From: Dehalogenimonas lykanthroporepellens BL-DC-9 | GTDB taxonomy: Bacteria > Chloroflexota > Dehalococcoidia > Dehalococcoidales > Dehalococcoidaceae | Length of the DNA stretch: 64,000 bases | Assembly (NCBI GenBank): GCA_000143165.1 | Contig: CP002084.1 | Span: 186,001-250,000, forward strand | Direction: 5' to 3' | Part shown: positions 26,583 to 50,961 of the stretch, in pieces | Numbering within the stretch: the first letter of the stretch is position 1 | How the letters are laid out: each line of letters starts with the position of its first letter | Program-made: the position numbers and the translations under genes | The notes under the pieces: model-generated | What the model was told of the DNA's origin: nothing | Seen by the model: only the letters and a program-made list of their open reading frames with translations | Database searches by the model: none

Positions 26583-29239
26583 CTTTTCTCCAGCCTGACC
26601 GCGGCCACCTTGAATTCCGGGGTGCCGGCTTCCGGGTCGGCCGCCGGTGAGGTCAGGATGTTGGTCGCCGTTTCCGGGAAATGGAAAGTCATGAATACTA
26701 CCCCGGCTGTCGTCCGGCGTGAAAGGAGCGCCCGGGCTTCGACCGCGCCGCGCCGGGAAACGACCCTGATTATATCACCGTCGGCGATACCCAGTCGTCG
26801 GGCGTCGTCAGCGGCTATCTCCAGCGTCTCCTCCGGCTGGAGCGCCAGCAGTCCCGGCACCCGGCGGGTCATGGTGCCGGTATGGAAATGATAGGGACTG
26901 CGCCCGGTGGTCAGGAGGAACGGATACTCCCCGTCGGGTGACTCGGCCGGCAGACGGCAGGCGGCGACGCGGAAAAGTCCCCGGCCGCGGGTGAACCGGT
27001 CGGTATGCAGTATTGGCGTTCCCGGGTGGTCTTCAGCCGGGCACGGCCATTGCAGGCCGCCGTTTTCCAGCCGTCGGTAATTAATGCCGGCGTAAGCCGG
27101 GACGACGGCGCGGATTTCCTCGAAGACAGCCTCGGCGGAATCGTAATCGAAGTCCCGGCCGCCCAGACGTTTGCCCAGTTCGGCGGTAATCCACCAGTCG
27201 GGTCGGGCCTCCCCCGGCGGCGCGACCGCCCGCTTTACCCGCTGGACGCGCCGCTCGGTATTGGTAAAGGTGCCGTCCGTTTCGGCGAATGATGCCGCTG
27301 GCAGAACGATGTGAGCCAGTTCGGTGGTTTCGGTCGGGAATACGTCCTGGACGATGAGCAGTTCCAGCCGGCCCAGTGTTCGGCGCACCCGTCCGGTGTC
27401 GGCGTCGGACAGCGCCAGGTTGTCCCCGGCCAGGTACAGTGCCTTGATGAGGCCGGCGTCGATGGCATCCAGTATTCCGGGCAGGGTCAGGCCGGGAGTT
27501 GAACTCAGCGGTGTTTCCCAGGCGGCTTCGAAGTCCCGGCGCGCCGTTTCGTCGGCGGTCCGGCGATAGCCGGGAAAGACATCGGGCAGGACGCCCATGT
27601 CGCAGGCGCCCTGGACGTTGTTGTGCCCGCGCAGGGGATTGACGCCGCTACCCGGCCGTCCCATGTTGCCGGTCAGCATGGCCAGATTGGCGATGGCGCC
27701 GACATTGTCGGTGCCGTGGCTGTGCTGGGTGATGCCCATGGCGTACAGGATGGCCGCCGGTCCGGCGGTGGCGTACAGCCGGGCGGCCGCCCGGATATCG
27801 TCCGCCGGCACCCCGGTGACGCCGGCGGCATGGTCGATGTCGAATGACTTGAGCGACGCCGCCAGCTCAGCGAAGCCTTCGGTGCGCTCTTCGATGAAAG
27901 TCCGGTCGGTAAGGTTTTCTGCGATAATGACTCCGGCCATGGCCGAAAGCAACAGCATGTCGGTACCCGGCCGGGGCTGGAGAAAGATATCGGCCTGGCG
28001 GGCCAGCGGAATGCGAAGCGGGTTGATGACTATCAGCCGGGCGCCGGCTTTCACGGCTTGCCTGAGGTCGAAGCCGATGACCGGGTGCGTTTCGGTGGTG
28101 TTGGCGCCGATGACCAGGAAACAGGCGGAAGTCCGCAGGTCGTCCAGCGAGTTGCTCATCGCCCCGGAACCGAAGGTAGCGGCCAGTCCGGCCACCGTCG
28201 GGGCGTGGCATAGCCGGGCGCAGTGGTCGACGGTATTGGTGCCGATGACCGCCCGGGCCAGTTTCTGAATGAGGTAGGCCGCTTCGTTGGTGGCCTTGGC
28301 CGAGCCGATGACCGCTATCTCTTCCGGCCGGTAGCCATGGAGCCGGGAACAGGTTCTTTCCAGCGCCTCATCCCAGCTACTGGTCTGCCAGGCGCCGTTC
28401 CGGTTCCTGACCAGCGGCGATGTCAGACGTTCCGGGTGATGTACGAATTCCCGGATGCCGAATCGGCCCTTGACGCACAGCCGTCCCCGGGAAACCGGGC
28501 TGGCTGAATCCCCTTCGACGCCGGTAATCCGTCCCCGGCGTATCTGGAGCCGGAGGCCGCAACCGACGCCGCAATAGGGGCAGATAGTGGCGGTTTCACT
28601 GTCTGGTTTTACATAATACTTCGGCGTCAAGGCCGCCGTCGGACACCGGGCGACACATTCACCGCAGGAACGGCAATCGGTTTCGGCCAGCGGCCGGTCG
28701 GCCACGGTGCCTACCCGGGAATCGTAACCGCGGCCGGTCAGCTCGATGGCGCCGTTGCCGGTTATCTCGTCGCAGGCGCGGGTACAGCGGGCGCACAGGA
28801 TGCAGTAGGCGCGGTCCAGCCGGAAAAAGGGATTGGAGTCGTCAATCGGTCGCGTCGGGGTTGACGGCGGCAAACGCCGCTCGGTAACCCCCAGCCAGGC
28901 GGCCGCTGTCTGGAGTTCACAGCGCTGGTTCTTGACGCAGGCCAGGCAGTCCAGCGGGTGATCCTGGAGCAGGAGCTCCATCACCGTTCTACGGGCTTCG
29001 GTCAGCGCCGTCGTCTCGGAGCGTATCGTCAGGCCTTCGGTCGCCGCCGTGGTGCAGGCGGTCGGCAGGCCCCGGACGCCGTCTATCTCCACCACGCACA
29101 GCCGGCAACCGCCGTAAGGCTTCAGGTCGGGATGATGGCACAGTGACGGAACGTAGATGCCGGCTTCCCGCGCCGCTTCCAGCACTGTCCGGCCTTCGGC
29201 GGTTCTGACTTCCCGCCCGTCGATGGTCATCTTTATCAT
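26579..29239 (-). CDS. fdhA: Formate dehydrogenase catalytic subunit (molybdenum/tungsten, Cys form)
   Basis: Large molybdopterin oxidoreductase, 886 residues from the ATG at 29239. Domains in order: plant-type 2Fe-2S domain (about 1-78, CRLCVVEIDG); His/Cys-ligated cluster (HPLDCLACVKNQRCELQ); two 4Fe-4S motifs (CILCARCTRACDE and CRSCGECVARCPTAAL); 4Fe-4S of the catalytic domain (CPYCGVGCGL); then molybdopterin domains. The metal ligand is the Cys in CARLCHAPTVAGL, where other formate dehydrogenases have selenocysteine. It receives electrons from formate and passes them to the NuoF/NuoE-like partners. Overlaps the nuoF-like gene by ATGA. Confidence 0.88.
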   Translation of the reverse strand: MIKMTIDGREVRTAEGRTVLEAAREAGIYVPSLCHHPDLKPYGGCRLCVVEIDGVRGLPTACTTAATEGLTIRSETTALTEARRTVMELLLQDHPLDCLACVKNQRCELQTAAAWLGVTERRLPPSTPTRPIDDSNPFFRLDRAYCILCARCTRACDEITGNGAIELTGRGYDSRVGTVADRPLAETDCRSCGECVARCPTAALTPKYYVKPDSETATICPYCGVGCGLRLQIRRGRITGVEGDSASPVSRGRLCVKGRFGIREFVHHPERLTSPLVRNRNGAWQTSSWDEALERTCSRLHGYRPEEIAVIGSAKATNEAAYLIQKLARAVIGTNTVDHCARLCHAPTVAGLAATFGSGAMSNSLDDLRTSACFLVIGANTTETHPVIGFDLRQAVKAGARLIVINPLRIPLARQADIFLQPRPGTDMLLLSAMAGVIIAENLTDRTFIEERTEGFAELAASLKSFDIDHAAGVTGVPADDIRAAARLYATAGPAAILYAMGITQHSHGTDNVGAIANLAMLTGNMGRPGSGVNPLRGHNNVQGACDMGVLPDVFPGYRRTADETARRDFEAAWETPLSSTPGLTLPGILDAIDAGLIKALYLAGDNLALSDADTGRVRRTLGRLELLIVQDVFPTETTELAHIVLPAASFAETDGTFTNTERRVQRVKRAVAPPGEARPDWWITAELGKRLGGRDFDYDSAEAVFEEIRAVVPAYAGINYRRLENGGLQWPCPAEDHPGTPILHTDRFTRGRGLFRVAACRLPAESPDGEYPFLLTTGRSPYHFHTGTMTRRVPGLLALQPEETLEIAADDARRLGIADGDIIRVVSRRGAVEARALLSRRTTAGVVFMTFHFPETATNILTSPAADPEAGTPEFKVAAVRLEKR

Positions 29240-47020: not shown

Positions 47021-47056
47021 GGCGGCTAACCGCCCCGCCGGATAGCGGTCTTTTTT
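47021..47056 (+). terminator. Terminator between terC and the glutaredoxin gene
   Basis: Overlapping GC hairpins (GGCGG-CTAA-CCGCC, or ACCGC / GCGGT) are followed by CTTTTTT. Its T run overlaps the -35 region of the next promoter. Confidence 0.65.
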
Positions 47057-47082
47057 GACGTCTGCCGGTTTTGCGTTATACT
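47055..47082 (+). promoter_or_regulatory. Promoter of the glutaredoxin-PDZ gene
   Basis: TTGACG (47055-47060) and TATACT (47077-47082) with a 16-base spacer; GGAGG at 47093-47097 serves the ATG at 47108. The gene has its own expression signals, which argues against it being silent. Confidence 0.75.
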
Positions 47083-47107
47083 GAACTGGTACGGAGGTTT
47101 CTGCCGG

Positions 47108-47608
47108 ATGAAAGTAACCGTCTATACCACACAGACCTGACCGCACTGTCATACCGTGAAAGGGTTCCTTTCACAGCAGGGCGTTCCCTTCACCGAAATC
47201 GACGTTGCCCGTGACCAGGACGCCGCCCGTGATCTGGTGGCCCGCACCGGTCAGATGGCGGTGCCGGTGACCGACATCGACGGCCACCTGGTCATCGGCT
47301 TCGATCGTCGTCAATTGGAATATCATATCGCCCAGGCCCGGTCAGCCGCCCCCCGTTTCGGTGCTTCGGTGGCCGACGGGGAGAAACACACCGGTCAGCC
47401 GGGGGCTTTCGTCGGCGCGGTTCGTGCCGGACAGCCGGCGGCGCTGGCCGGGCTGAAACCGGGTGATGTCATTACCGCCATCGACGCCGTCAGCATCGGC
47501 AATTCCGCCGACCTCACCCGCGCTCTGTCCGGTCTGCAACAGGGGGCCAGGGTGCGTATTTCCTTCATCCGGGACGGTCAGTCCCGGCAGGCCGAAGGCC
47601 GGCTCTAG
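47108..47608 (+). CDS. Glutaredoxin-like/PDZ fusion with in-frame UGA at the first active-site Cys (candidate selenoprotein)
   Basis: Reading from the ATG at 47108: MKVTVYTTQT, then UGA (47138-47140), then PHCHTVKGFLSQQGVPF. In glutaredoxin-like proteins this position is the first Cys of CPHC, so the motif would be U-P-H-C. The frame is otherwise open to 47608 (166 residues). A glutaredoxin/thioredoxin fold covers about residues 1-75 (cis-Pro in MAVPVTDIDG), and a PDZ domain about 95-165 (GAFVGAVRAGQPAALAGLKPGDVI). A perfect eight-pair hairpin follows the UGA at bacterial SECIS spacing. Alternatives: a nonsense mutation, with GTG 47156 as a poor restart. Confidence 0.7.
47138..47174 (+). promoter_or_regulatory. 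Candidate bacterial SECIS element
   Basis: UGA (47138-47140), a 15-base spacer, then the perfect stem GTGAAAGG / CCTTTCAC (47156-47163, 47167-47174) with loop GTT. The first loop base is G and lies 23 bases after the UGA, inside the range described for bacterial SECIS elements. A short outer CTG/CAG pairing is possible. No SelB-binding test is possible from sequence alone. Confidence 0.5.
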
Positions 47609-47991
47609 CTCTTTCTGCCGTCTTTCAGCGGCTGTTTGCGCCGCCGGTCGATGACATGGGTGACGGCCATCAAAGGATGACGGAGCGTCATCCGGGGGCC
47701 GGCATACCGCATCACTTCCCGCACTCTTTGTCGCGGTTCCGGTTTGTAGCAGTGTACCGGACATAACGCGCACACGGTTTTGCCCTCGCCGAAGGGACAT
47801 CTGTCCAGCCGTTGCAGGGCATATTCGCCCAGTTCCCGGCAGTCCTCACAGCGCTCCGGCGACCGGTGATGGTACCCGCAGTACATATCTATCATCACCA
47901 GGATGGTGACCGCTTCCCGCTGTAAACGGGGACGGCCGGCGAACATGGCTTTCAGACGCTCTTTTTCGGTCGGGCGGTGATTTCGGTTCAT
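47605..47991 (-). CDS. Nitrous oxide-stimulated promoter family protein
   Basis: A 128-residue cytoplasmic protein with a Cys/His-rich pattern characteristic of this small family: MIDMYCGYHH, ERCEDCRELGEYALQRLDRCPFGEGK, VCALCPVHCYKP and VMRYAGPRMTLRHPL. Seven Cys and several His suggest metal binding. The family was named for one promoter-linked gene in a denitrifier; its role is unknown. Four bases overlap the convergent glutaredoxin gene. Confidence 0.85.
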   Translation of the reverse strand: MNRNHRPTEKERLKAMFAGRPRLQREAVTILVMIDMYCGYHHRSPERCEDCRELGEYALQRLDRCPFGEGKTVCALCPVHCYKPEPRQRVREVMRYAGPRMTLRHPLMAVTHVIDRRRKQPLKDGRKS

Positions 47992-50708: not shown

Positions 50709-50770
50709 CCCGACGCCATTTGACTCGCCTGCCTGCCGCCTGATATCATGTCGGCATAATAGAATATCGT

Positions 50771-50858
50771 TACTGGGGGAGCTGTCAGGCTGAGAGTTCC
50801 GGAGCTTTTCGGACGACCCTTGGAACCTGGTCTCGGTAATGCGAGCGTAGGGAAGTAG
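50771..50858 (+). promoter_or_regulatory. Thiamine pyrophosphate (TPP) riboswitch
   Basis: The conserved THI-box elements occur in order: GGGGGAGC at the 5' side, CTGAGAG (50790-50796), ACCCTTGGAACCTGGTCT, a variable hairpin, and GCGTAGGGAAGTA at the 3' side. It lies about 100 bases before the AIR-synthase-like gene and thiE. A hairpin with a T-rich tail at about 50869-50905 (GCCGGAAG / CTTTCGGC) could be its terminator. Confidence 0.92.
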
Positions 50859-50961
50859 CATCGGATTCGGCCGGAAGTCATTCGTTGCTTTCGGCTTCTT
50901 GTTTCCCGGCAGAGCCTCCCTGTACTCTCCCATGTAGCGTATGAAAGAAGGAGATTTGAGA

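Follow-up and report, generated by a model that had tools for sequence, protein, structure and literature searches.

We identified in Dehalogenimonas lykanthroporepellens BL-DC-9 a gene that very probably (about 0.95) encodes a selenoprotein, with a glutaredoxin domain fused to a PDZ domain and an in-frame UGA at codon 11 that is predicted, from sequence comparisons, to specify selenocysteine (Sec). The gene occupies positions 47108-47608 on the plus strand of the stretch of DNA analysed here (64,000 nucleotides, hereafter the window). The original prediction of Sec decoding, made from this stretch alone, is now strongly supported, and the weight of the case comes from the exclusive alternation of TGA with Cys codons among homologous genes, a strict link between the TGA and a downstream hairpin, and the presence of the Sec machinery in the genome. 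We infer from these observations that Sec is incorporated in vivo.

A glutaredoxin-PDZ gene with one in-frame TGA

The reading frame opens with ATG, contains a sole TGA as codon 11 (47138-47140) and meets no further stop before the TAG at 47606-47608, as had been proposed; if the TGA stands for an amino acid, the product has 166 residues and begins MKVTVYTTQT-TGA-PHCHTVKGF. The TGA would thereby supply Sec11 of a UPHC active site, an assignment based on the TGA and Cys codons of 55 homologous genes. Upstream, a motif search of the region gave a single sigma70-like site, TTGACG-N16-TATACT (47055-47082, plus strand; 0.1 expected), followed by the Shine-Dalgarno sequence GGAGG (47093-47097, plus strand). 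The TATACT and GAGG columns are both invariant in eight orthologues, in agreement with the suggestion that the gene has its own promoter and ribosome-binding site. A YgbA_NO family protein (PF11756) is encoded convergently on the minus strand (window positions 47605-47991), its end overlapping that of the selenoprotein gene by 4 bases, and a TPP riboswitch is present at 50765-50870 on the plus strand of the window (Rfam RF00059, 62.8 bits).

Pfam profiles recovered both of the anticipated domains, namely a glutaredoxin domain (PF00462; residues 3-62, 47114-47293, plus strand; E 4e-17, 62.5 bits against a cut-off of 22.9), in which UPHC forms the UxxC motif, and a PDZ domain of the HtrA/DegQ type (PF13180; residues 85-163, 47360-47596, plus strand; 9e-14). 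The AlphaFold2 model, built with 40 sequences, has a mean pLDDT of 92.5 for both domains and places UxxC at the first helix of a glutaredoxin fold; with a pTM of 0.57, the relative placement of the two domains is uncertain. In Foldseek searches, the closest solved structure for the glutaredoxin domain was cGrx1 (7c10; rmsd 1.6 A, 51% identity), and the PDZ domain matched the PDZ domains of DegP/DegQ/HtrA proteases. The first glutaredoxin strand begins at residue 3 and no signal peptide was seen, which would make the cytosol the site of action of the HtrA-type PDZ domain. Thus, the product is best explained as a cytosolic protein composed of an N-terminal Sec glutaredoxin-like domain and one HtrA/DegQ-type PDZ domain. 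A scan of genome contigs returned mostly unrelated PDZ proteins, and a search of viral contigs yielded no glutaredoxin-PDZ protein; its matches were plain glutaredoxin-like sequences no longer than about 75 residues.

An ORF finder using translation table 11 reported GTG 47156 as the start of a 150-aa ORF, and automatic gene calling would place the start there, so that the catalytic residue is lost. Taken at face value, this start would make the TGA a true stop, ending a 10-residue leader peptide that is followed by a separate protein. We consider this arrangement very improbable: a start at GTG 47156 would leave the protein without its catalytic motif and first beta strand, the residues between the TGA and the GTG (PHC.T) are conserved with almost only synonymous changes, Cys14 is invariant in a 40-row alignment, and the relatives with a Cys form read straight through the position. 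Furthermore, across eight genomes of the genus, residues 1-10 and 12-16 accumulated many synonymous changes at a dN of 0 to 0.03, which rules out a separate start at this GTG.

Conservation of the TGA and its alternation with Cys codons

The glutaredoxin-PDZ gene is present in all eight Dehalogenimonas genomes, each time with a single TGA, which is codon 11, and the encoded proteins share 64-80% identity. In pairwise comparisons with the window gene, dS reaches about 1 or more, which is near saturation, against a dN of 0.13-0.27. Because the TGA is retained in all eight genomes despite this divergence, a sequencing error or a fresh nonsense mutation can be ruled out as its source; the codons before and after the TGA alike have a dN much lower than dS, and this copy shows no sign of the decay that would have spoken against Sec. 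The three genomes of the sister genus lack both a glutaredoxin-PDZ gene and a selB above the cut-off.

To place the gene in a broader context, we searched with a family profile 393 genomes of Dehalococcoidia and 400 genomes from other classes of the phylum, which revealed full-length genes of this architecture both in other Dehalococcoidia and in other classes. Codon 11 is TGA in 35 of the 55 genes examined in detail, TGT in 11 and TGC in 9, with no other codon at this position. Thus, UGA occupies a position where homologues have Cys, as expected of a bacterial selenoprotein, and the alignment of relatives, suggested as a check, places the TGA at the same codon in the eight genus genomes and in another 27 genes from the phylum, with Cys forms elsewhere. 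The original prediction had raised the alternative of a lone nonsense change from TGC or TGT. A conversion of this kind takes one base change and relatives with Cys forms do exist; however, an ordinary Cys glutaredoxin-PDZ gene hit by such a mutation, or by a sequencing error, is contradicted by the conservation of the TGA in 35 genes, 27 of them outside the genus and likewise followed by the hairpin, and by an intact frame under purifying selection in all eight congeners at near-saturated synonymous divergence. We regard this alternative as extremely improbable.

The distribution of selB, the presence of which was recorded for 25 of the 27 genomes with TGA genes and 11 of the 18 with Cys genes, follows the same direction (p 0.02, in a test that ignores relatedness). 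Both TGA genes without selB come from fragmented MAGs, one of them 69% complete. The protein tree requires 6-8 changes between Sec and Cys, but its deep support is weak and well supported branches demand no more than 2 of them; likewise, two of the seven independent Sec/Cys contrasts in the best tree lie on well supported branches, too few pairs for a sign test. In two genomes (L175 and L176, genus code g106), the TGA-type gene contains a shared frameshift near codon 51 with the TGA and hairpin kept, which could reflect either decay or a common assembly problem.

The SECIS-type hairpin and the Sec machinery

A bacterial-type SECIS hairpin, GTGAAAGG[GTT]CCTTTCAC, lies at 47156-47174 on the plus strand, 15 nt after the TGA, with the eight pairs and the G-first loop that had been described for it. 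Taken as sole evidence, this hairpin was rejected as too weak, given that an 8-bp hairpin of like type follows 4 of the 1192 TGAs on the plus strand of the window and that all 8 pairs arise in 1.4% of trials in which the peptide is randomly recoded with synonymous codons. Strong evidence emerges only across relatives, where the hairpin is tied to the TGA and its pairs covary. A hairpin with 6 or more pairs, beginning 13-18 nt downstream of the TGA, is present in 35/35 TGA genes and in 0/20 Cys genes, and the loop is GTT in 29 of the 35; across the TGA genes, therefore, a stem-loop lies just 3' of the UGA with G starting the loop, as in SECIS elements. In an alignment of 24 TGA genes, pairing in the stem is 99% and three pairs have changes in both partners; the covariation score of 0.272 (against 0.174 in shuffled alignments) was reached in 0/500 shuffles and exceeds that of every slid register. 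RNAalifold recovered the same helix unaided. Three genes have a shifted version of the hairpin (GTCAAGA[GGTT]TCTTGAC and similar), which is itself compensatory. Within the genus, five of the six amino-acid-invariant codons in the hairpin are identical in all eight genomes, compared with 6 of 78 elsewhere in the gene (Fisher p 8e-5), indicating that the nucleotides of the hairpin are constrained beyond the requirements of the protein. A scan of the hairpin region against Rfam found no matching model, only chance matches.

The BL-DC-9 genome, a single contig of 1,686,510 bases (C1), contains the sel genes that the original prediction had proposed to look for, in a single cluster at C1:1469899-1474393. 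The cluster consists of tRNA-Sec (selC; anticodon TCA, Rfam 69 bits), selD, selA and selB, the three protein-coding genes scoring 368, 519 and 346 bits, respectively, against NCBIfam models, all above the curated cut-offs. The selD gene itself carries an in-frame TGA (AYSG-U-AAKIGPGDL), and the gene for FdnG (C1:29717-32710, 1269 bits) has one as well (TQARL-TGA-HSS); both fall in the active site, where Sec is expected. The use of Cys by formate dehydrogenase had been cited as evidence against Sec decoding. This holds for the formate-dehydrogenase-like molybdoenzyme encoded in the window (26585-28654, minus strand, no in-frame TGA) but not for the FdnG of this genome; because the Cys enzyme is a diverged paralogue and FdnG has the TGA, the counter-evidence is removed. 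A second full-length formate dehydrogenase paralogue lacking TGA is located at C1:413449-416430. The Dehalogenimonas sel genes and the Sec in SelD and FdnG have been published (PMC4918011, PMC13390414); these two are the only selenoproteins named there for Dehalogenimonas, and glutaredoxin goes unmentioned.

Decoding of the UGA without tRNA-Sec, through suppression or near-cognate read-through that inserts Trp or Cys, appears very unlikely: the position alternates with Cys only, the hairpin is tied to the TGA, and the genome possesses the sel machinery along with in-frame TGA codons in selD and fdnG.

Relation to known selenoproteins and possible role

Sec-containing glutaredoxins (PF00462, UxxC) are an experimentally verified selenoprotein family (PMC13188914). 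The closest structural relative of our glutaredoxin domain, cGrx1 (7c10), is glutaredoxin-1 of Clostridium oremlandii (PMC7642778), and for the Sec-Grx of Clostridium (Alkaliphilus) oremlandii the status of selenoprotein is established (cited in PMC13188914). The Dehalogenimonas protein resembles cGrx1 in the glutaredoxin fold, the position of Sec first in UxxC and the 51% identity of the glutaredoxin domains, but cGrx1 is a single domain of ~84 aa, whereas the protein described here has a fused PDZ domain and belongs to a Chloroflexota family often encoded beside chaperone genes. The Trx7/PDZ (seleno)protein family NF041199 likewise combines a thioredoxin-fold domain with PDZ in a selenoprotein; however, it has a Thioredoxin_7 domain, a CxxU motif with Sec second rather than UxxC, and a model of 390 positions, which our protein matched through its PDZ part only (38.9 bits, cut-off 300). 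The Uxx-star families NF041212, NF041211 and NF041114 share a glutaredoxin-like domain with Sec in, or close to, the first position of the motif, but are single-domain proteins or have other fusions, and the scores fell below the respective cut-offs (52.7/66, 33.9/100 and 25.6/72 bits). The best NCBIfam match for the glutaredoxin domain was the YruB-family model TIGR02196 (85.9 bits, just under the cut-off of 88.55), which has no PDZ and is not Sec-defined, and no NCBIfam model spans the whole protein above its cut-off. A 2026 review that lists 119 families of prokaryotic selenoproteins includes Grx, UXX-star and Trx7/PDZ, and a glutaredoxin-PDZ family is absent from it (PMC13188914). We therefore rate the domain architecture and the lineage as new, and the chemistry, that of a Sec glutaredoxin, as known.

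In the mechanism we propose, SelB-GTP-Sec-tRNA(Sec), held by the hairpin directly behind the UGA, would insert Sec at codon 11. By analogy, Sec11 would attack disulfides or thiols oxidised in other ways, after which Cys14 would resolve the resulting selenenylsulfide. The PDZ domain probably holds clients or a partner via hydrophobic or C-terminal segments; both the reductase activity and the PDZ ligand are predictions.

The gene neighbourhood outside Dehalogenimonas suggests a context for such activity. Among the 22 upstream neighbours on the same strand within 150 nt, 11 encode DnaK (3), DnaJ (3), ClpB (3) or a LonB-like protease (2), a raw count (L141, L149, L152, L154, L157, L161, L162, L166, L170, L172 and L173). 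These neighbours span seven family codes and occur in Sec and Cys genomes alike; a ClpB gene also occurs at a distance of 370 nt upstream, and two more cases have an FtsH-type protease downstream. The upstream neighbour in L147 is rubrerythrin, and in one Dehalococcoidia genome a heliorhodopsin gene (L151:636-1523, minus strand) lies close downstream of the glutaredoxin-PDZ gene. Because dnaK, dnaJ, clpB or lonB adjoins the gene in these relatives, the protein might be a PDZ-targeted disulfide reductase of protein quality control that works with the chaperone and protease machinery, in our view its likeliest role, to which we assign slightly less than even odds. Alternatively, the PDZ domain and the chaperone neighbourhood could be functionally unlinked and the selenoprotein a generic Grx/NrdH-like reductant, a possibility that bears on the role and not on Sec, and that we take seriously without favouring it. 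The Dehalogenimonas neighbours, namely TerC, YgbA_NO and a GNAT-like protein (GNAT assigned by eye), are not chaperones, so the neighbourhood is not kept in this genus, and glutaredoxin domains that lack a PDZ partner are common in the class. However, Sec and Cys forms alike retain the fusion throughout the phylum, and the chaperone and protease genes recur upstream in seven family codes.

To conclude, this gene extends the selenoproteins of organohalide-respiring bacteria by one with two domains. The repeated switches between Sec and Cys, with the hairpin present or absent to match, amount to a clean natural experiment on how the two residues are exchanged. With chaperone genes next door, the idea of a redox role in protein quality control lends itself to direct testing. 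Tentatively, the family could be an undescribed Chloroflexota subfamily in which an HtrA-type PDZ domain tethers a Sec-glutaredoxin to DnaK/DnaJ/ClpB/Lon, and which may thus serve as a selenium-dependent partner of protein quality control in anaerobes.
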